From assembly GCF_006738645.1 (NCBI RefSeq), contig NZ_AP019700.1, forward strand, positions 1,128,001 through 1,192,000: a stretch of DNA of 64,000 bases, read 5' to 3'. A model generated the notes under the pieces. It had not been told where the DNA came from. It ran no database searches and worked only from the letters and a program-made list of their open reading frames with translations. Every line of letters starts with the position of its first letter. The first letter of the stretch is position 1. A program made the translations under genes and the position numbers. The stretch is from Stella humosa. Lineage in GTDB: Bacteria; Pseudomonadota; Alphaproteobacteria; ATCC43930; Allostellaceae. Below, in pieces: positions 5,280 to 60,799 of the stretch.

Positions 5280-6043
5280 CGATGCTGCTGGAACTGGAGG
5301 GCGTCACCAAGCGCTTCGGCGGCCTGACGGCGCTGGATGGGGCCTCGCTCGACGTCCGCCAGGGCGAGGTGCGCGGCCTGATCGGGCCGAACGGCTCGGG
5401 CAAGTCGACGCTCTTCCATGTCGTCACCGGCGTGCACCGGCCCGACGGCGGCCGCATCACCTTCGACGGGCACCCGATCGCCGGCCGCCCGACCGAGGCG
5501 ATCGCCCAACTGGGCCTCGCCCGTACCTTCCAGGATATCCAGCTCTTCTACGACATGACGGTGCTGGAGAACGCCATGATCGGCTGCCATCGCCTGACGC
5601 GGGCGGGCGCGCTGGCGGCCATGGTCGGGCGGCGCTGGGTGCGGGCGGAGGAGGCCGCCATCGTCGAGCGCGCGATGGATGCGCTGGCCGTCGTCGGCCT
5701 GGCCGACCAGGCGCGCGAGCCCGCCCGGCGCATCCCCTACGGCCACCAGCGCCTGCTGGAGATCGCCCGCGCGCTGGCGGCTGAGCCCAAGCTGATGATC
5801 CTGGACGAGCCGGCCGCCGGCATGAACCCGTCCGAGACCCGCTCGCTGATGGACCAGATCGGCCGCATCGTCGACCGCGGCGTCACCGTCTTCCTGGTCG
5901 AACACAACATGAAGATGGTGATGGACATCTGCCAGCGGATCACCGTGCTGAACTATGGCCGGGTCATCGCCACCGGTACGCCGACCGAAGTGCAGGCCGA
6001 CGCCCAGGTGATCGAGGCCTATCTCGGCGGGACAGCCGTTTGA
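5276..6043 (+). CDS. LivG-type ABC transporter ATP-binding protein
   Basis: A 255-residue ATPase of the branched-chain amino-acid transporter family. Walker A GPNGSGKST lies near residue 39, Walker B LMILDEPAAGMNP near residue 166, and the H-loop VEHNMKMVM near residue 207. The signature region reads PYGHQRLLEIARALA, the variant typical of LivG proteins. ATG 5276 overlaps the permease stop by 4 bp and gives the usual family length. It pairs with the LivF-type ATPase directly downstream. Confidence 0.92.
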   Translation: MTMLLELEGVTKRFGGLTALDGASLDVRQGEVRGLIGPNGSGKSTLFHVVTGVHRPDGGRITFDGHPIAGRPTEAIAQLGLARTFQDIQLFYDMTVLENAMIGCHRLTRAGALAAMVGRRWVRAEEAAIVERAMDALAVVGLADQAREPARRIPYGHQRLLEIARALAAEPKLMILDEPAAGMNPSETRSLMDQIGRIVDRGVTVFLVEHNMKMVMDICQRITVLNYGRVIATGTPTEVQADAQVIEAYLGGTAV

Positions 6044-6059
6044 TGTTGGAGGCGGGCTG

Positions 6060-6764
6060 ATGCTGCAGATCGCCGACCTCGCCGTCGCCTACGGCCCGAT
6101 CCAGGTGCTGAACGGCGTTTCGATGTCCGTGGCCGAGGGGGAGATCGTCGCCCTCATCGGCGCCAACGGGGCCGGCAAGACCACCATCCTCAACACCGTG
6201 TCGGGCCTGCTGCGGCCCGCGCGGGGCGAGATCCGCTTCGCCGGCCAGCGCATCGACGGCCAACCGCCCGAGCGCATCGTCGCCGCCGGACTGGCCCAGG
6301 TGCCGGAGGGGCGCAAGGTCTTCCGCAACCTGACCGTCCATGAATGTCTGCGCATGGGCGGGCTGGTGCGGCGCGACAAGGCGGGCGTCGCCGCCGACAT
6401 CGAGCGCATGTACGGGCTTTTCCCGCGGCTGCGCGAGCGCCATCGCCAGCTTGCCGGCACGCTCAGCGGCGGCGAGCAGCAGATGCTGGCCTTCGGCCGC
6501 GCGCTGGTCGCCCGGCCCAAGGTCCTGCTGCTCGACGAGCCGTCGATGGGCCTGGCGCCCCGCATCGTGGCCGAGATCGCCCGCCTGATCCTCGACATCC
6601 GGCGCGAGGGCATGACGGTGCTGCTGGTGGAGCAGAACGCCGCCATGGCGCTGGGCCTGGCCGACCGCGGCTATGTGCTGGAGGCCGGCCGCATCCTGCT
6701 GGAAGCCGACGCCCGCAGCCTCCTGGCCGACGAGCGCGTGCGGCGGTCCTATCTGGGGCTCTGA
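6060..6764 (+). CDS. LivF-type ABC transporter ATP-binding protein
   Basis: A 234-residue second ATPase of the Liv-type transporter. Walker A GANGAGKTT is near residue 36, the signature LSGGEQQMLAFGRAL near residue 136, Walker B VLLLDEPSMGLAP near residue 158 and the H-loop VEQNAAMAL near residue 192. The start is 16 bp after the livG-like gene and has a good ribosome site (GGAGGCGGG). It is the last gene of the operon; the next gene runs in the opposite direction. Confidence 0.92.
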   Translation: MLQIADLAVAYGPIQVLNGVSMSVAEGEIVALIGANGAGKTTILNTVSGLLRPARGEIRFAGQRIDGQPPERIVAAGLAQVPEGRKVFRNLTVHECLRMGGLVRRDKAGVAADIERMYGLFPRLRERHRQLAGTLSGGEQQMLAFGRALVARPKVLLLDEPSMGLAPRIVAEIARLILDIRREGMTVLLVEQNAAMALGLADRGYVLEAGRILLEADARSLLADERVRRSYLGL

Positions 6765-6815
6765 TACCTGTCTGCTGCCGACGTGGGCGCCGGGTGCGTT
6801 CCAGGACCTGGCAAT

Positions 6816-6921
6816 ATGAGGAAGAACCTCATCTCGAGCGCACAGCGCAGCGAGCGGTCGAGAGACGCACGGGCGCGCGCCACATTCGGATCGGCGGCGG
6901 CCGGCATTGCCAGCCGCCGCC
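6816..6921. terminator. Paired hairpins between convergent operons (terminator or REP-like)
   Basis: The gap between two convergent operons holds two inverted repeats. The first is ATGAGG/CCTCAT at 6816-6832 with a 5-nt loop. The second is at 6893-6921, where GGCGGCGGC pairs with GCCGCCGCC and an inner GGC-ATT-GCC stem continues after one mismatch. No T-run follows in either direction. Between them the sequence is palindrome-rich (CTCGA near 6835, TCGAG near 6868) and recalls the repetitive intergenic palindromes of some alphaproteobacteria. Confidence 0.4.
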
Positions 6922-6930
6922 ACCCGCCCG

Positions 6931-7920
6931 TCAGTTGGCGACGGCGCCCGATGCCTTCAGGATCGGCGTCCAGCGCGCCACCTCGGCCTTCACGAACTCG
7001 CCCAGATAGGCGCCCGTGCGCTCGCGGCCCTCGGGGATGACGCCGCCCAGGTCGAGCAGGCGCTTGCGCGTGCCCTCGTCCGACAGCGCCTTGTCGAGCG
7101 CATCGCTCAGCTTGGCGACGATCTCCTTGGGGGTGGCTTTCGGCGCGAACACGGCATTCCAGGCGCTGACCTGGTAGTCGGGCATGCCGGCCTCGGTGGT
7201 GGTCGGCAGGTCGGGCAGGGCCGGCGAGCGGACCGGCGTGGCGATGGCGTAGGCCTTGATGGTGCCGGCCTTCACCTGCTCCACCAGGTTCACGATCTGG
7301 TCGCACATGAAGTCGACTTGGCCGCTGACGAGGTCGTTCAGGGCGGGGCCGGTGCCGCGATAGGCGACCTGGGCCGGCTTCACGCCGAGCTGGGCGTTCA
7401 GCATGGTGATGGTGGTGTGCGACACCGAGCCGACGCCGGCATGGGCCTCGTTCAGCTTGGCGGCGTTCGCCTTCACGTAGGTCGCGAACTCGGCCAGGTT
7501 ATTGGCCGGGAAGTCCTTCTTGGCGACGATCAGGATGGGCGTGCCGGCGGCCAGCCCGATCGGCTCGAAATCCGTCGTCGGGTCGTAGCGCAGCTTGGGA
7601 TAGAGCGCGGGTGCCGCCCCATGCGTCCCCATGTGGCCCATCATGATGGTGTAGCCGTCGGCCGCCGCCTGGGCGCCCCGCGTGATGCCGGTGGTGCCGC
7701 CGGCACCGGCCACGTTCTCGATGATCACCTGCTGGCCCAGCGTGCGCGACATGTGCTCGCCGACGATGCGGGCGATGACGTCGGTCGGGCCGCCGGCGGC
7801 GAACGGCACGATCATGACGACCGGGCGGGTGGGATAGGCCTGGGCCTGGGCCGTGCCGGCCATCACGCCGATGGCGGCGGCGGCCGCGATGCCGAGGACG
7901 GCGCGTCTCGTGGGGTTCAT
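6931..7920 (-). CDS. tctC: Tripartite tricarboxylate transporter substrate-binding protein (Bug/TctC family)
   Basis: A 329-residue periplasmic binding protein of the Bug family, which captures carboxylates for a TctA/TctB permease. The signal peptide ends at about residue 25 (GTAQAQA), followed by the family start YPTRPVVMIVPFAAGGPTDVIAR. AYRGTGPALNDLVSGQVDF, near the middle, is the conserved ligand-loop region. ATG 7920 is preferred over an in-frame ATG 30 bp upstream because GAGGAA lies at the right distance before it. It is the third gene of a minus-strand tctB-tctA-tctC operon. The ligand cannot be read from the sequence. Confidence 0.92.
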   Translation of the reverse strand: MNPTRRAVLGIAAAAAIGVMAGTAQAQAYPTRPVVMIVPFAAGGPTDVIARIVGEHMSRTLGQQVIIENVAGAGGTTGITRGAQAAADGYTIMMGHMGTHGAAPALYPKLRYDPTTDFEPIGLAAGTPILIVAKKDFPANNLAEFATYVKANAAKLNEAHAGVGSVSHTTITMLNAQLGVKPAQVAYRGTGPALNDLVSGQVDFMCDQIVNLVEQVKAGTIKAYAIATPVRSPALPDLPTTTEAGMPDYQVSAWNAVFAPKATPKEIVAKLSDALDKALSDEGTRKRLLDLGGVIPEGRERTGAYLGEFVKAEVARWTPILKASGAVAN

Positions 7921-52958: not shown

Positions 52959-53071
52959 GGCGGGAGCGGCCCATGCCATACTAGGAGTGCGCGATCGACG
53001 CTTTCCGGTGGGGGACTGACCACCGTCGGAAGCCGGCCTGCCCGATGCCAGCCTGGACGATGGAGCACGGA

Positions 53072-54466
53072 ATGCGGTTGCCACAGTCTTGCAGCGCGCC
53101 TGGATCCGCCGACGGCACGGGTGCGCCGGCCGTGCCGCTCTGGCCGGCGGAGTTCCGCTGGGGCGCCTCGACCTCCGCCTATCAGATCGAAGGGGCCGCG
53201 ACGGCCGACGGCAAGGGCCCGAGCATCTGGGACGTGCGGTCGCACATGCCGGGTCGAATCACGGGCGGCGATACCGGCGACGTCGCCTGCGACCACTATC
53301 ACCGCTACCGCGAGGACATCGCCCTGATGGGCGAGATCGGGCTCGATGCCTACCGCTTCTCGATATCCTGGCCCCGGGTGCTGCCGCAGGGCCGCGGGCA
53401 GGTCAATCCAGCCGGGCTGGATTTCTACGACCGCCTGGTCGACGGGCTGCTCGCCGCCGGAATAGAGCCATGGGCCTGCCTCTATCACTGGGATCTGCCC
53501 CAGGCCCTTCAGGATCAAGGGGGCTGGGTCGCGCGCGACAGCGCCGGCTGGTTCGCCGACTATGCGGTGCTGATCGCGCGCCGTCTCGGCGACCGGGTGA
53601 AGCGCTTCGCCACCTTCAACGAGCCGTCGGTCTTCACGCTGTTCGGCTATGTGATGGACTGGCAGGCACCCGGGATCATGGACAGGGCCTCCTATCTGGC
53701 CGCCATGCACCACGTCAACTTGGCCCACGGTGCGGCGGTCGACGTGCTGCGCGATCTGGTGCCAGGCGGCCTCGTGGGTGCGATCCACAATCGCCAGCCC
53801 TGCCTGCCGGTCAGTCAAGCCGAGGCGGACAGGGAGGCGGCGGCCTTCTTCGATGCCTGCTGGAACAGGGCCTTCCCGGATGCCCAGATCCTGGGAACCT
53901 ATCCGTCCGCGCTGATCGACAAGGTGGCGCCCTGGGTCAAGGCCGGGGACCTCGCGCGCATCTGCCGGCCCGTAGACTGGCTCGGGCTCAACCACTACTC
54001 GCCCATCTACGCCCGCGCCGACCCCGAAGCGATCCTGGGCTTCGGCTGGGGGTCGCCGCCGGAAGGCCGGCCCCAGACCGATGTCGGCTGGGTCATCGAC
54101 GCCAACGCCTTCCGCGACACCCTGATAGACGTGCATCGAACCTATCGCCTGCCCATCTACGTGACCGAGAACGGCTATGGCGGCACGGATGCGCCGGATG
54201 CGACGGGTGCCGTCCAGGATCCGGAGCGCGTCGGCTATCTTGGCGCCTATATCCATGCCATGGGCGAGGCGATGGCGCGGGGCGCGGACGTCCGTGGCTA
54301 TTTCGTCTGGTCGCTGCTCGACAACTTCGAGTGGGGCTCGGGCTATTCGCAGCGGTTCGGCATCGTCCATGTCAACTACCCGACGCAGCGCCGCACGCTG
54401 AAATCCTCTGCGCGCTGGTATCGCGAACATATCCGCACCAGCCGTGTCCCGACGGCTTTCGCCTGA
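53072..54466 (+). CDS. Family 1 glycoside hydrolase (beta-glucosidase type)
   Basis: A 464-residue TIM-barrel retaining glycosidase. The N-terminal family signature FRWGASTSAYQIEGA is present; the acid/base Glu184 is in TFNEP, the nucleophile Glu366 in VTENGY. SWPRVLP and WSLLDNFEW complete the sugar subsites. There is no signal peptide in the core, so it is probably cytoplasmic. GGAG six bases before ATG 53072 decides the start; ATG 53045 and 53060 are also in frame. It ends 6 bp before the ABC-like gene, so the two are cotranscribed. Confidence 0.92.
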   Translation: MRLPQSCSAPGSADGTGAPAVPLWPAEFRWGASTSAYQIEGAATADGKGPSIWDVRSHMPGRITGGDTGDVACDHYHRYREDIALMGEIGLDAYRFSISWPRVLPQGRGQVNPAGLDFYDRLVDGLLAAGIEPWACLYHWDLPQALQDQGGWVARDSAGWFADYAVLIARRLGDRVKRFATFNEPSVFTLFGYVMDWQAPGIMDRASYLAAMHHVNLAHGAAVDVLRDLVPGGLVGAIHNRQPCLPVSQAEADREAAAFFDACWNRAFPDAQILGTYPSALIDKVAPWVKAGDLARICRPVDWLGLNHYSPIYARADPEAILGFGWGSPPEGRPQTDVGWVIDANAFRDTLIDVHRTYRLPIYVTENGYGGTDAPDATGAVQDPERVGYLGAYIHAMGEAMARGADVRGYFVWSLLDNFEWGSGYSQRFGIVHVNYPTQRRTLKSSARWYREHIRTSRVPTAFA

Positions 54467-54472
54467 CCGCCG

Positions 54473-56344
54473 GTGACCGACGGCCCGGTCCTTGAGCCAT
54501 TGCCGGAAGCGGCCACGCCCGCCGACGCGGCCGGCGACGCGCCGGGCGGAACCCTTCTTCGCTTCGTGCGCCTGGGCGGCGCCTACTGGAACGGCGCGGA
54601 TCGCTGGAAAGCCCGCCTGCTGACCGCGCTGCTCGTGGTGCTCGGCATTCTCCAGGTCCTTCTCGTCATACGCTTCAATCTCTGGAGCGCCGACCTTTTC
54701 GACGCGCTCGAGCGACGCGACGCCCGTCAGGTGCTGATCCAGGCGCTGGTGTTCGCTGCCATCGTCATTGCCACCATGCTGGTCAATGCGGCCCACCTGG
54801 AAGTCCGCCGGCGCCTGCAGATGGGTTGGCGGCACTGGCTGACGATGCGGGTTGCGGATGGCTGGCTGGATCGTGGCCGGCAGCACCAGCTGGCGCTGGT
54901 GCCGGGGGCACCCGGCAATCCGGATGCGCGGATCGCCGACGATATCCGCCTGGCGACCGAGGCGACGATCGAACTGGCAAATTCCCTCTTCTATTGCCTG
55001 CTGCTGCTGGTCAGTTTCGTCAGCATCCTGTGGGGGCTGTCCGGTACGGTGACCCTGGCGTTGGGCGGCATCACCCTGGAACTGCCCGGATATCTCGTCG
55101 GCCTCGCCCTCGTCTACGCGGCAGCGGGCGTCGCGGTGGCCTTCCTGCTCGGGCGGTCGCTGGTGCATGTGACCGACCTCAGACAAAGCGCGGAGGCCGG
55201 CTACCGGTTTGGCTTGGTCCGCGACGTCGCGCAGGCAGAGGAGATCGCCCTCCTCGGCAGCGAGGCCAACGAGCGCCGGCGCTTGCGCAACCTGTTCCGG
55301 GCGATCACCGCATCCTGGCAATTGCAGACGCAGGGACTGCGCCGTCTGACGCTGTTCACGTCGGCCTATGGAACGATGGCGGCGATGTTTCCGGTCCTGG
55401 TCGCGGCCCCGCGCTACCTCGCGGGCGAGCTGACGCTGGGTGGTCTCATGCAGACGGCCCAGGCATTCCAGCAGGTGACCGCCGCCTTGTCGTGGCCCGT
55501 CGACAATTTTCCGCGCCTGGCGGAGACGATGGCTTCCATGGAGCGCGTGCTGGCGCTCCAGGCGGCATTGGATACGATCGAAGCGGAGGCAGCCCGTCCG
55601 GGGATCGCCATCGACGTCGTGGCGGCGAGCGGCGGCACGCTGACATTCCGCGACCTGACCATCGCCGATGCCGGCGGCGCGATCCTGTTCTCGGGCATCT
55701 CTACCGATATCCATCCAGGGGAGCGGGTCTTGCTGCTGGGCGATCCGAGGCTGGCGCGTGCGCTGTTCAAGGTCGTGGCACGCGTATGGCCGTGGGGGCG
55801 GGGGCGGGTGGAACTGCCCGACGATGCGGCGATCCATTTCCTGCCATCGTCGCTCCATCTGCCGGCCGACACGTTGCGCGCGATCCTGGCCTATCCCGAT
55901 GATCCCGAGACACTCGACGGGCTGGCCTGCATGCGGGCGCTGGCGCGCGTCGGGCTGGAGGATCTGACCGCCCGCCTTGATACGCCCGACGACTGGATGC
56001 TCCAGCTCGATGCATCTCAGCGCCAACGGATCGGGTTCGCGCGCATCCTGCTGAAGCGGCCCAGCTGGATCTTCCTGGAGGAGCCTGGTGAGTCGCTGGA
56101 TTCCGGGACTGAGCTCGCTCTGATGCAGGTGATTGCCGAAGCGCTGCCGTCAGCGACCCTGCTGACCGCGTCCCACCATGCCGAGCTGGAGGCCTTCTAC
56201 GGCCGCACGCTCCGCTTTGAACCGGCGGCAGACGGCCGCGTCTTCGTGCGGGACAGCGGCGAGCGCGCCGCCGGCGACAAGGCTGCCCCGCGCTGGCCGG
56301 CCATCGAGGTCATTCGCCGTGGCTTTGGCGAAGATCCGGGCTGA
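54473..56344 (+). CDS. SbmA/BacA-like ABC membrane protein with degenerate nucleotide-binding domain
   Basis: A 623-residue protein. Residues about 40-340 form an ABC_membrane_2 (SbmA/BacA/PMP-type) domain with about six helices. Residues about 380-580 align with an ABC ATPase, but the nucleotide site is ruined. The P-loop reads G423-D-P-R-L-A-R-A, so both P-loop glycines and the lysine (Arg429) are lost. The signature is LDASQRQR instead of LSxGExQR, and Walker B Asp is Glu536. Glu537 and the H-loop region (TASHHAE) remain. It may work without ATP hydrolysis, like SbmA, or with a partner. The start is GTG 54473, 6 bp after the glycosidase stop. Confidence 0.8.
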   Translation: MTDGPVLEPLPEAATPADAAGDAPGGTLLRFVRLGGAYWNGADRWKARLLTALLVVLGILQVLLVIRFNLWSADLFDALERRDARQVLIQALVFAAIVIATMLVNAAHLEVRRRLQMGWRHWLTMRVADGWLDRGRQHQLALVPGAPGNPDARIADDIRLATEATIELANSLFYCLLLLVSFVSILWGLSGTVTLALGGITLELPGYLVGLALVYAAAGVAVAFLLGRSLVHVTDLRQSAEAGYRFGLVRDVAQAEEIALLGSEANERRRLRNLFRAITASWQLQTQGLRRLTLFTSAYGTMAAMFPVLVAAPRYLAGELTLGGLMQTAQAFQQVTAALSWPVDNFPRLAETMASMERVLALQAALDTIEAEAARPGIAIDVVAASGGTLTFRDLTIADAGGAILFSGISTDIHPGERVLLLGDPRLARALFKVVARVWPWGRGRVELPDDAAIHFLPSSLHLPADTLRAILAYPDDPETLDGLACMRALARVGLEDLTARLDTPDDWMLQLDASQRQRIGFARILLKRPSWIFLEEPGESLDSGTELALMQVIAEALPSATLLTASHHAELEAFYGRTLRFEPAADGRVFVRDSGERAAGDKAAPRWPAIEVIRRGFGEDPG

Positions 56345-56365: not shown

Positions 56366-57487
56366 TCATGATCCGAACCCGCCGTCCGGCTGACGCGGAC
56401 CGAACACGCGGGCCAGATCCCCCTCGTCGAAGGCGGCCGGCAGCGGCAGTGTCCCTTGCCGCGGCGGCCCGCGCCGGAAGCGGATATCCCAGGCGGAGAA
56501 GCCGGATACGAAGAACCGCATGCTGCCGCCACCGCGCCGGTCGCTGCCATCGGGCGCGATCGCCTGCGGGTACCAGATCGCACCCTGGATCAGGGTCCGC
56601 GGCGGTGTCCAGCCGGCGGGATTGCCCGCATCGCGGTTGAAGGACACCGCGACCCCCCGCTGGACCAGCGTGCGTTCGCCGTCATGGGTGCGGTTGAGCA
56701 GCATGACGAACTGGTCGATATCGAGGTTCTCATGAACGGCCGGGCCCCAGTGGGCGTCCGGGCTGGCGTGGCGCCACCCGAGCCTCGGCCGAATGAGCGG
56801 CTGCGGCGGGAAGCGATGGCGCGGCTGCCACCCCGCGTCTGTCCACCAATCCAGCGCCCCGCCGGGGGCATCGCGATCGCCGATCGGATAGCGGGCGACA
56901 ACGATTCCCTGGGCGGAATCGTCCGCATGGTAGCTGGTCAGGTGGATCAGGAAGAATCGTCCGGAGCGGTCGGGGACGACCGTAAAGTCGCCGAAGCCGC
57001 CACTGAACCAGCCATTGTCGAAGCTGCAATCGATCTCGTCCGGTCGCGGCGTCAGCACCGGACCCAGATCCTGCCAGGTCACGCCGTCGTCGCGGGACCG
57101 CAGCGCGCCAATCCGGTAGGTAACCGTCGGCTGCGGGCAGGGTGCGGGCGCCTCGCAGTGATACCATCCGTAGAGCGTGGCATCCGGCGCCCGCCAGATC
57201 GATTCGACCCATTTTCCGGCGCGAGGGTCCGGGTCGTTGAGGATGCGGATCGCCGCGCCAGCTTCCCGGAAATGGAACGGTGGCCGACCCACCCGCCGGT
57301 AGCTGTGGCCGATCGGCGTGAAGTGGGCCGGCAGCGCCAAGATCGTGCCGCCCTCGGTCAGGACCGGGGTATTGCAGTCTGCCCGGCGAAGGGGCGGGCC
57401 GTGCAGCCGCAGCGGCGATGCGTCCCGCCACTCGACATGCACGTCGGCGTCGCGATCCCAGAGGATCGCACGCCACGGCCCGGCCAC
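56366..57487 (-). CDS. Predicted beta-propeller protein, glycoside-hydrolase-like
   Basis: A roughly 373-residue protein rich in Trp, Asp and Gly with repeated sheet-like blocks (YRIGALRSRDDGVTWQDLGPVL, DFTVVPDRSGRFFLIHLTSY, ENLDIDQFVMLLNRTHDGE, GWTPPRTLIQGAIWYPQAI). These resemble GH43/GH117-type or sialidase-type propellers; I cannot fix a family or catalytic residues. The start is uncertain: GTG 57487 lies 5 bp after the stop of the CBS-BON gene and fits an operon with it. It is convergent with the ABC-like gene (21-bp gap). No signal peptide is evident. Confidence 0.6.
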   Translation of the reverse strand: MAGPWRAILWDRDADVHVEWRDASPLRLHGPPLRRADCNTPVLTEGGTILALPAHFTPIGHSYRRVGRPPFHFREAGAAIRILNDPDPRAGKWVESIWRAPDATLYGWYHCEAPAPCPQPTVTYRIGALRSRDDGVTWQDLGPVLTPRPDEIDCSFDNGWFSGGFGDFTVVPDRSGRFFLIHLTSYHADDSAQGIVVARYPIGDRDAPGGALDWWTDAGWQPRHRFPPQPLIRPRLGWRHASPDAHWGPAVHENLDIDQFVMLLNRTHDGERTLVQRGVAVSFNRDAGNPAGWTPPRTLIQGAIWYPQAIAPDGSDRRGGGSMRFFVSGFSAWDIRFRRGPPRQGTLPLPAAFDEGDLARVFGPRQPDGGFGS

Positions 57488-57492
57488 CTCGG

Positions 57493-58194
57493 TCAGACGC
57501 CGAAGTTCCAGTGTATTACCGCCAGGTGGTCCTCGACCGAGCGAATGCCCGGCATGGTCTGTGCGGCCACCACCATGGCCTTGCGTTCCGCGTCGTTGCG
57601 CACCGCACCCCACAGATGGGCGACGCCGCCGGACACCAGTACATTGAAGGTGGGACTCTGGGACCAGGGCTGCTGGCGGATCCGGTCGAGCAGATGCTCG
57701 CGCAGGAGCGAATCTCCCGCCTCACCGGGATCGGGCTCGACCTTGGCCGGGGTGCCGTGGGTGGCGATCGCCTGGACGAAGTTGGCCCGGCTGACGATCC
57801 CGCAAACCCGGCCCTCGTCGACGACGACGACGCGCTTGATGCGATTGTCCTCCATTAGTCCGGCGACCTGGTCGAGCGGGGCGTCCTTGCCGACCGTGAC
57901 GACCTTGCGTGTCATCACCGCGGCCGCGGTCGGCCCCTCGTTCTTGACGTACTCCGCCGCCAGCGCCTCGGGATCGGAGACGAACCGCATCAGCCAGGAC
58001 CGCTCGCGCTCCGTGCCGATCTCCGGCCGGCGCATCAGGTCGCTTTCGCTTACGATGCCGACCAGCTGGCCCCCTGCATCGACGACAGGGGCAGCCCCGA
58101 TCCGCCGGTCGACGAGCAGGCGGGCGATGCCGGCGATGCTGGTCTCGGGGGCGACCGTGTGGACGGTCGTGGTCATCACGTCTCTGGCGCGCAT
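57493..58194 (-). CDS. CBS-pair and BON domain protein (paralog 1)
   Basis: A 233-residue protein. Two CBS domains (about 2-60 RDVMTTTVHTVAPETSIAGIARLLVD and about 90-150 VMTRKVVTVGKDAPLDQVAGLMED) form a Bateman module, which senses adenine nucleotides. A BON domain follows (about 160-233, LLDRIRQQPWSQSPTFNVLVSGGVAHLWG), which binds lipids or membranes in other proteins. AGGAGG sits 6 bases before the second of two adjacent ATGs, so 58194 is preferred. It is preceded 91 bp upstream by an FNR-like box and followed by the propeller gene. A close paralog lies at 60074-60775. Confidence 0.9.
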   Translation of the reverse strand: MRARDVMTTTVHTVAPETSIAGIARLLVDRRIGAAPVVDAGGQLVGIVSESDLMRRPEIGTERERSWLMRFVSDPEALAAEYVKNEGPTAAAVMTRKVVTVGKDAPLDQVAGLMEDNRIKRVVVVDEGRVCGIVSRANFVQAIATHGTPAKVEPDPGEAGDSLLREHLLDRIRQQPWSQSPTFNVLVSGGVAHLWGAVRNDAERKAMVVAAQTMPGIRSVEDHLAVIHWNFGV

Positions 58195-58284
58195 CATGCT
58201 CCTCCTGGGGCAATCATGCTCGGCCAGGGCATCGGGCCGGGCCGAACGCAAGGAGAAACTAAGCATTCGGGATGATCCGTCGCG

Positions 58285-58298
58285 TTGATCCACCTCAA
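58285..58298. promoter_or_regulatory. FNR/FixK-type box upstream of CBS-BON paralog 1
   Basis: TTGATCCACCTCAA matches TTGAT-N4-ATCAA except for one base. It lies between divergent genes: 91 bp before the CBS-BON start (minus strand) and 57 bp before the CBS protein start (plus strand). The same box, at the same 91-bp distance, is found before CBS-BON paralog 2 although the rest of the two leaders differs. Confidence 0.6.
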
Positions 58299-60073: not shown

Positions 60074-60775
60074 TCAGGCGCCGAAGTTCCAGCGCACGAC
60101 CGCCAGATGGTCCTCGACCGCGCGGATGCCGGGCAGTGTCTGGGCGGCGACGACCATGGCCTGGCGTTCCTCGTCGTTGCGCACCGCCCCCCACAGATGA
60201 GCAACGCCGCCGGACACCAGGACGTTGAACGCCGGCCCTTGCGACCATGGCTGCCGGCGGATCTTGTCGAGAAGCTGGTCGCGCAGCGCGGCATCGCCAG
60301 CGTCGCTGGCTGCAGCCTCGACCCTGGGCGGCGCGCCATGGGTGGCGATGGCCTGGACGAAGTTGGCCCGGCTGACGATCCCGCACACTCGGCCTTCGTC
60401 GACGACGACCACCCGCTTGATGCGGTTGTCCTCCATCAGCCCGGCCACCTCGTCCAAAGGCGCGTCCGGCCCAACGGTCACTACCTTGCGCGTCATGACG
60501 GCCGCCGCCGCGGGACCCTCGCTCTTGACGTATTCCTCGGCCAGGGCCTGCGGATCGGAAAGGAAACGCATCAGCCACGACCGCTGGCGCTCCGTGCCGA
60601 TCTCCGGCCGGCGCATCAGGTCGCTCTCGCTGACGATGCCGACCAGCCGGCCGGTCGCTTCGACGACGGGGGCGGCCCCGATCCGCCGGTCGACGAGCAG
60701 GCGGGCGATGTCGGCGATGCTGGTCTCGGGGGCGACCGTGTGGACGGTCGTGGTCATCACGTCTCTGGCGCGCAT
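60074..60775 (-). CDS. CBS-pair and BON domain protein (paralog 2)
   Basis: A 233-residue protein of the same length and domain order as paralog 1 and nearly identical over most of it (for example MTTTVHTVAPETSI, KVVTVG, GLMEDNRIKRVVVVDEGRV). Differences cluster in the linker (about 155-168) and the C terminus (RWNFGA instead of HWNFGV). The start and AGGAGG ribosome site are the same. A 9-bp hairpin at 60800-60822 and an FNR-like box at 60866 lie upstream. It is a recent local duplicate, either of which may be the source. Confidence 0.9.
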   Translation of the reverse strand: MRARDVMTTTVHTVAPETSIADIARLLVDRRIGAAPVVEATGRLVGIVSESDLMRRPEIGTERQRSWLMRFLSDPQALAEEYVKSEGPAAAAVMTRKVVTVGPDAPLDEVAGLMEDNRIKRVVVVDEGRVCGIVSRANFVQAIATHGAPPRVEAAASDAGDAALRDQLLDKIRRQPWSQGPAFNVLVSGGVAHLWGAVRNDEERQAMVVAAQTLPGIRAVEDHLAVVRWNFGA

Positions 60776-60799
60776 CATGCTCCTCCTGGGGCAATCGCC

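Follow-up and report, generated by a model that had tools for sequence, protein, structure and literature searches.

A 64-kb stretch of the single-contig, 5.83-Mb genome of Stella humosa (NZ_AP019700.1, positions 1,128,001 to 1,192,000; hereafter the window, within which its features are numbered) encodes a protein in which an SbmA/YddA-type transmembrane domain (TMD) is fused to an ATP-binding cassette (ABC) nucleotide-binding domain (NBD) that has lost its ATP site. The same loss was found throughout a clade of proteobacterial relatives, in which it arose once and apart from SbmA. The family has been kept intact by selection despite its long-dead ATP motor, and its genes are recurrently linked to genes of glucoside use, which suggests that an ATP pump has turned into an ATP-free sugar transporter.

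Loss of the ATP site in Stella and its relatives

The Stella gene starts with GTG, ends with TGA and has no stop inside its frame. Pfam assigned PF06472 (E 4e-32) and PF05992 (E 1e-19) to residues 45-363 of the protein, and phmmer against PDB sequences led to 6tqe (Rv1819c) as top match (E 6e-49), spanning both domains; ABC_tran reached only E 0.098, under the Pfam cut-off. An AlphaFold2 model built from 21 clade sequences (mean predicted local distance difference test score, pLDDT, of 79) has the layout of an ABC exporter and predicts an ABC ATPase fold for residues 381-595, with a pLDDT mostly of 84-95 in this pseudo-NBD and lower values beyond residue 580. Rv1819c was also the top Foldseek match, and the VIA-align list was headed by ABCD1, with ABCD3, ABCD4 and Rv1819c at most 3 Z units away. 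Architecture (PF06472 plus ABC ATPase) and fold are those of Rv1819c, BclA and YddA. Among the hallmarks of an ATP-driven type IV ABC transporter, the PF06472-type TMD is present, as is the ATPase fold in the predicted model; Walker A GxxGxGK(S/T), signature LSxGE and the Walker B Asp are absent. Judging from the model, the ATPase fold is probably kept and the active site is not.

In place of the G(P/E)(S/T)GxGKST typical of intact relatives, Walker A of the Stella protein is GDPRLARA, and the MAFFT alignment places a one-residue deletion at the lysine. A preliminary description of this DNA had reported an intact gene whose product retains an SbmA/BacA-like membrane domain and the overall ATPase fold, for which it proposed structure prediction as a check, and whose ATP site is destroyed. 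All of this was borne out, the fold by the predicted model; neither Walker A nor the Q-loop, the signature or the Walker B Asp has survived. Its account of the lysine as R429 has to be modified: the lysine is indeed gone, but because of the deletion this is not a plain exchange of lysine for arginine.

A scan of genome contigs for relatives of the Stella protein yielded 39 loci. Four genomes of the genus (Stella copy included; the nearest relatives include Stella vacuolata ATCC 43931 and Stella sp. ATCC 35155) have in common GDP(R/Q)L(A/S)R and the one-residue deletion at the lysine, and all other rows aligned with these four retain GxGK. The same kind of change was present in relatives of 41-50% identity from Magnetospirillum and Ferrovibrio metagenome-assembled genomes (MAGs), Thauera, Azoarcus, Neoroseomonas, Roseomonas and Tepidiphilus, and from Methylobacter, Methylococcaceae, Lysobacteraceae and Desulfobulbaceae MAGs. 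The clade spans Alpha-, Beta- and Gammaproteobacteria as well as two delta-type MAGs, and further members are encoded on Azospirillum plasmids. Two Hydrogenophilus proteins are more divergent (L083 and L085, 36-37% identity) and have motifs eroded further; this erosion beyond the rest of the clade (L083, 6948-8726; L085, 5818-7539) possibly reflects a later stage of domain loss. Among 385 sampled alphaproteobacterial genomes, 68 gave matches and ten were carriers (two Stella, eight non-Stella); motifs were read in these ten, in the three nearest intact relatives and in loci L122-L138, and a second search matching 65 genomes added no further rows to this reading. No relative of the Stella protein was found among viral contigs. 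One clade protein, L076, lies on a contig of an 'Anaerolineales' MAG and is 93-97% identical to Tepidiphilus members; this contig is probably misbinned.

An alignment-independent test for GK(S/T) in the P-loop region was negative for all 48 clade proteins and positive for 66 of 66 intact relatives. In the alignment, the lysine column holds 47 deletions and one Ile in the clade versus 66 lysines in the intact set. The remaining motif residues are retained sparsely by the 48 clade proteins, the Walker B Asp in one, the signature Ser in 13 and its Gly in six, and the Q-loop Gln, catalytic Glu and switch His in 15 each. For these counts, the exceptional L081, which is intact, was placed in the intact set, and L080, cut by a contig end and without NBD data, was left out; L087 and L088 have no usable open frame, and duplicate loci (L047/L050, L082/L046, L074/L006, L122-L124/L150-L152) were counted once. 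L086, a protein of membrane domain only, was at first counted with the dead group and later removed. This 375-aa relative from a Methylocystaceae MAG (5983-7107) groups with the intact L100 and reflects either an independent NBD loss or a frameshift. The alignment of orthologues, which the preliminary description had proposed as a check, therefore shows consistent loss of the ATP-site residues, and its refuting case, damage to the Stella copy alone, is excluded since the genus and the wider clade have the same losses.

The dead NBD is under purifying selection, with a ratio of nonsynonymous to synonymous substitution rates (dN/dS) of 0.07-0.46 in 15 clade pairs versus 0.08-0.35 in four intact pairs; in 12 of the 15 clade pairs it was under weaker constraint than that pair's membrane domain. 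With 29 clade and 47 intact proteins left after thinning at 70% identity, the columns near-invariant in one set only (clade:intact) numbered 40:16 in the TMD and 10:30 in the NBD (Fisher 1e-5), so that constraint in the clade is shifted to the membrane domain. Residues specific to the clade TMD (clade versus intact) are H108 (47/49 versus 0/65), R113 (49/49 versus 3/65), Q285 (49/49 versus 2/67), Q330 (49/49 versus 5/67) and P342 (48/48 versus 0/67). P342 directly follows W341, which occupies the column of the SbmA gate tyrosine Y368 (PMC13316013; papers are cited here and below for the parts of their text that were available). E163 is invariant in the clade (49/49) and occurs in the three nearest intact sisters too, and therefore predates the loss of the ATP site.

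Origin of the clade and its relation to SbmA

Trees were built on the membrane domain only, because broken NBD motifs could otherwise pull rows together. A quick tree placed 41 of 42 labelled dead-site rows in one clade (Shimodaira-Hasegawa-like approximate likelihood ratio test, SH-aLRT, 99), the exception being L086, a truncated ordinary relative; SbmA was a single long branch in this tree, joined to the long row L045. For a careful tree, L045 was dropped and six SbmA/BacA-like proteins were added, two of which score below the NF008306 cut-off. With seven SbmA/BacA-like proteins thus included, all 24 dead-site rows grouped together (100/98) within the NBD-bearing relatives, the intact L147 being their sister (98/94), and SbmA/BacA formed a group of its own (100/100) outside all NBD-bearing relatives sampled; the tree is unrooted, and the nesting is read with SbmA/BacA as outside group. 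The loss of the ATP site has a single origin. Forcing the dead-site clade and SbmA together cost 41.7 log-likelihood units and was rejected by the approximately unbiased (AU) test (p 0.0027). From these membrane-domain sequences, the clade looks like a second loss of ATP use, parallel to SbmA. The suggestion in the preliminary description that the Stella protein is an intermediate between ABC transporters and SbmA is not supported, because the AU test rejects the grouping and the tree separates the clade from SbmA; an intermediate on the SbmA line is thereby rejected.

SbmA may still be a valid comparison for how the Stella protein works, as a parallel and not as a lineage. Both have an ABC-type membrane domain without use of ATP, as shown by others for SbmA/BacA (SLiPT) and as would hold for the clade. 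The SbmA ladder positions E193, E203, E269, E276, E287 and E378 align with D156, I166, T234, E241, V252 and E351 of the Stella protein, giving acidic counterparts at three of six positions (D156, E241, E351), which E. coli YddA has too; the columns around SbmA E203 could shift by one residue, and Stella E163 and E167 lie there. SbmA has no NBD, an extra TM0 domain and the ladder residues E203, E269 and E287 (PMC13316013). Unlike SbmA/BacA, the Stella protein has a predicted NBD, a separate placement in the tree and different gene neighbours. In the model only one short helix (24-40) precedes the first long helix, which may set it apart from the additional TM0a/TM0b of SbmA. From E. coli YddA, in which the motifs are kept, the clade differs in that the ATP site is gone from all sampled members and the TMD has invariant residues of its own. 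Transport by BclA requires ATP hydrolysis (PMC12003926).

SbmA has been derived from a YddA-like ABC ancestor in PMC13316013 (2026), where split or NBD-less YddA genes are also mentioned; the available text of that paper does not describe the dead-NBD clade, and 'degenerate' is absent from its main text. In PMC12003926 (2025) the family is sorted into classes, without such a clade in the available parts. No description of the clade or of a glucoside role was found in searches of open-access literature, a coverage outside which most subscription papers and preprints fall. Databases label Azospirillum members 'ABC transporter ATP-binding protein/permease', and such labels would mislead metabolic models.

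Linkage to glucoside genes, proposed mechanism and alternatives

Directly upstream of the Stella gene lies a glycoside hydrolase family 1 (GH1) gene (Table 1), the only GH1 found in the Stella genome (genome search, E up to 1e-20). GH1 genes were first seen beside the clade gene in Stella, Ferrovibrio and MAG loci, and GH5 and GH13 genes in Azoarcus, Tepidiphilus, methanotroph and Desulfobulbaceae loci; annotated Azospirillum records have GH1 and alpha-glucosidase/alpha-galactosidase genes beside or near it. Pfam confirmed GH5, GH13, GH1 and glucokinase for representative neighbours. In a uniform tblastn census for GH1, GH5, GH13, GH4 and glucokinase, at least one marker gene lay within 2 kb in 28 of 48 clade loci and in none of 34 loci of intact relatives (Fisher 2.6e-9); after collapsing at 70% identity the figures were 19/29 versus 0/29. 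Within 6 kb they were 31/48 and 1/34, the single match at an intact locus being a glucokinase-like gene 5 kb from that of L192. Glucokinase was found within 2 kb in 11 of the 48 clade loci, from Azoarcus (two), Tepidiphilus (three), a Rhodocyclales MAG, Hydrogenophilus L085, Ferrovibrio, the Stella-genus MAG L074, G304 and G208. When 12 alphaproteobacterial carriers were searched genome-wide, all 12 had a GH1 within about 1.1 kb of a clade gene, which in nine was the only GH1 found. A fairer set, L139-L146, read after the GH1 link had been noticed, had GH1 within 2 kb in seven of eight loci and within 6 kb in all eight; in L143, GH1 adjoins a second clade copy. This locus (genome G420) carries two tandem dead-NBD copies with a gene of the unannotated propeller family c11 (Table 1) between, followed by the only GH1 found in the genome. 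In the Thauera-type, sugar-free loci L056, L057, L059, L060 and L066 the clade gene lies, by eye, between pyruvate:ferredoxin oxidoreductase-like and AMP-nucleosidase-like genes. The linkage to glucoside genes is a new context, absent from the preliminary description.

The linked hydrolases start without an evident signal peptide by eye, so the sugar would have to enter the cytoplasm. The closest PDB entries to a neighbouring GH5 protein were glucan 1,3-beta-glucosidases (best E 2e-55), which suggests beta-1,3-linked gluco-oligosaccharides among the possible substrates. From these data we propose that the protein is a homodimeric type IV ABC-fold membrane protein which no longer binds or uses ATP and which would act as an ATP-independent, probably proton- or ion-coupled inner-membrane importer of beta-glucosides or short beta-gluco-oligosaccharides. 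The neighbouring GH1 (or GH5) would free glucose from the imported sugar in the cytoplasm, and glucokinase would phosphorylate it. The pseudo-NBD may serve as a structural clamp that keeps the two transmembrane halves and their coupling region joined, with no power stroke, and the membrane halves would alternate access without nucleotide, as described for SbmA (PMC13316013), driven by the proton or ion gradient through charged residues of the clade's own. LmrA in its secondary-active mode is a precedent for an ABC protein using ion gradients; unlike the clade as proposed here, it also performs ATP-dependent transport, its ATP-free mode being additional (PMC2704374). That a homodimer runs no ATP-driven cycle is very probable from the motifs, and a glucoside-type substrate is rather probable for the sugar-linked part of the clade; to the picture as a whole we give slightly less than an even chance.

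If true, the sugar role explains how a lone GH1 or GH5 in the cytoplasm of such bacteria is supplied with its substrate, and the probable substrate is small, soluble and easy to assay. SbmA raises the question of how primary pumps turn into secondary transporters and displays only the outcome, a protein without NBD; in the present clade the NBD is attached but dead, the sisters are ATP-competent, the origin is single and members stand at several degrees of NBD erosion. The clade might accordingly represent a second independent conversion of an ABC pump into a secondary transporter, with the dead NBD kept and a substrate change from peptides or cofactors to beta-glucosides, and thus a new class of sugar importers across several proteobacterial classes, a view that we hold tentatively.

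Several observations weigh against the proposed importer. The Stella copy retains E537 as catalytic Glu and H568 as switch His, and in nine of the 48 clade proteins the former P-loop stretch contains a lysine, in no case followed by Ser or Thr, with G(D/N)xxTGAK in L063, L068 and L069 and EEGK in L083. As aligned, the Stella protein lacks counterparts of the SbmA ladder glutamates E203, E269 and E287, and common descent, not mechanism, may account for the TMD residues specific to the clade. Because the markers were chosen after some of the clade loci had been seen, the 28/48 is partly post hoc and circular. In the available flanks, no marker gene lies within 6 kb in 17 of the 48 clade loci, of which six have one flank of less than 1 kb, and none was present in those of the Magnetospirillum MAG or of the whole subclade of Thauera 2A1, Neoroseomonas/Roseomonas and Acetobacteraceae MAGs, as sampled. 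Tepidiphilus and Hydrogenophilus are poor sugar users.

The Thauera-type subclade lacks these markers, and its genes adjoin, by eye, pyruvate:ferredoxin oxidoreductase-, AMP-nucleosidase-, TauD- and enoyl-CoA-hydratase-like genes, which suggests another substrate for it. It is unlikely, though worth weighing, that the clade consists of ATP-independent transporters of some other substrate or of uncoupled facilitators; the sugar genes would then be linked only because glucose units occur in a larger transported compound, for example a lipid, peptide or signal molecule that is glucosylated. Peptides and cobalamin are carried by ATP-driven relatives (PMC12003926), which would fit; the recurrence of glucosidases and glucokinase as neighbours in separate subclades argues against it. 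We consider it improbable that the protein exports, or flips across the membrane, a glucoside or glucan made or trimmed by the linked enzymes. Type IV ABC folds are usually exporters, and two Azospirillum copies are also near a glycosyltransferase gene, but glucokinase and hydrolases point to the use of an incoming sugar, and the relatives SbmA and BclA import (PMC12003926, PMC13316013).

A heteromeric ABC system, with the ATP-competent partner of the dead half encoded at another place, would have precedents, as full-length and heterodimeric exporters often have degenerate sites (PMC7756269); TmrAB, TM287/288, TAP and CydDC likewise tolerate degenerate motifs in a working protein, with a second site energizing the cycle (PMC7756269). 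The Stella genome indeed encodes one paralogue with intact motifs (34% identity). Unlike those exporters, however, the clade protein has no same-family partner in 11 of the 24 carrier genomes searched, where it is the sole PF06472 match (G081, G208, G304 and the genomes behind L053, L056, L067, L072, L073, L075, L077 and L083; for these eight no completeness is given, and the titles of three mark them as MAGs); additional PF06472 matches occur in the remaining 13. An obligate heterodimer with an intact relative is therefore unlikely. In addition, no intact SbmA/YddA-family gene lies beside the clade gene in the loci read, and with neither Walker A nor signature left, any heteromer would have damage in both of its composite sites, so that we regard a heteromeric system as very improbable, although a half from another ABC family might serve as partner. 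Other ABC genes were found near ten loci (L054, L061, L072, L075, L077, L078, L079, L080, L083, L084); on alignment, signature and Walker B were intact in all ten and Walker A in nine, the L061 fragment being without that part. These genes were rejected as SbmA/YddA-family partners, as they resemble other ABC families by eye. Two weak PF06472 matches in dead-NBD carriers, G256:C10:3140-3889 (443 aa) and G420:C2:79201-79953 (426 aa), are by their length perhaps SbmA-like.

Instead of transporting anything, the protein could serve the glucosidase as a scaffold in the membrane or as a sensor, its NBD having been turned into a binding domain. This would agree with the lost motor and the tight linkage to enzyme genes, but there is little to recommend it, given that constraint is stronger in the membrane domain, where polar and charged residues specific to the clade are invariant. 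Simple pseudogene decay in the Stella strain would account for the broken motifs and nothing more, and has practically no standing, being ruled out by losses common to the orthologues, the open frame and a dN/dS well below 1.

Features of the window and neighbouring genes

Table 1. Transporter gene, domain and motif positions, and adjacent genes in the window.
Feature	Coordinates	Strand	Remarks
GH1 beta-glucosidase	53045..54466	+	6 bp upstream of transporter gene; PF00232 E 6e-145; TIGR03356 570 bits (cut-off 478.5)
Pseudo-ABC transporter gene, 623 aa	54473..56344	+	SbmA/YddA-type TMD fused to ATP-dead NBD
TMD, residues 24-374	54542..55594	+	Pfam PF06472/PF05992; AlphaFold2 model: short first helix, then long helices
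Pseudo-NBD, residues 381-595	55613..56257	+	Predicted ABC ATPase fold; whole-length Rv1819c/ABCD matches
Walker A remnant GDPRLARAL, residues 423-431	55739..55765	+	Lysine lost
Q-loop Gln position	55847..55849	+	Now S459
Signature motif position, residues 512-516	56006..56020	+	Now LDASQ (versus LSxGE)
Walker B remnant WIFLEE, residues 532-537	56066..56083	+	Asp replaced by E536; catalytic Glu E537 present
Family 'c11' protein	56366..57613	-	True start probably further inside, near 57475

The c11 protein encoded on the opposite strand gave no Pfam or NCBIfam match, and its family alignment, A4, nothing significant against PDB sequences. The family is conserved, with 40-76% identity to the Stella copy in A4, and lies within 2 kb of seven of the 48 clade loci, including the Stella window and two other Stella loci; it recurs beside or near the transporter in Ferrovibrio and other carriers as well. 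A model of c11 (mean pLDDT 76.7) is a five-bladed propeller resembling GH43/GH62 glycosidases. Its best Foldseek match was an endo-arabinanase (E 9e-7), with sialidases listed too, and VIA-align led to a Z of 19.3 with a root-mean-square deviation of 4.0 over 275 residues, followed by GH43, GH62 and levan-acting entries. The modelled fold fits carbohydrate use, although a shared fold shows no function. Further along the window, two very similar proteins that appear CBS-domain-like by eye are encoded on the same strand as c11 (57493-58293 and about 60074-60790), apparently as a result of a local duplication.

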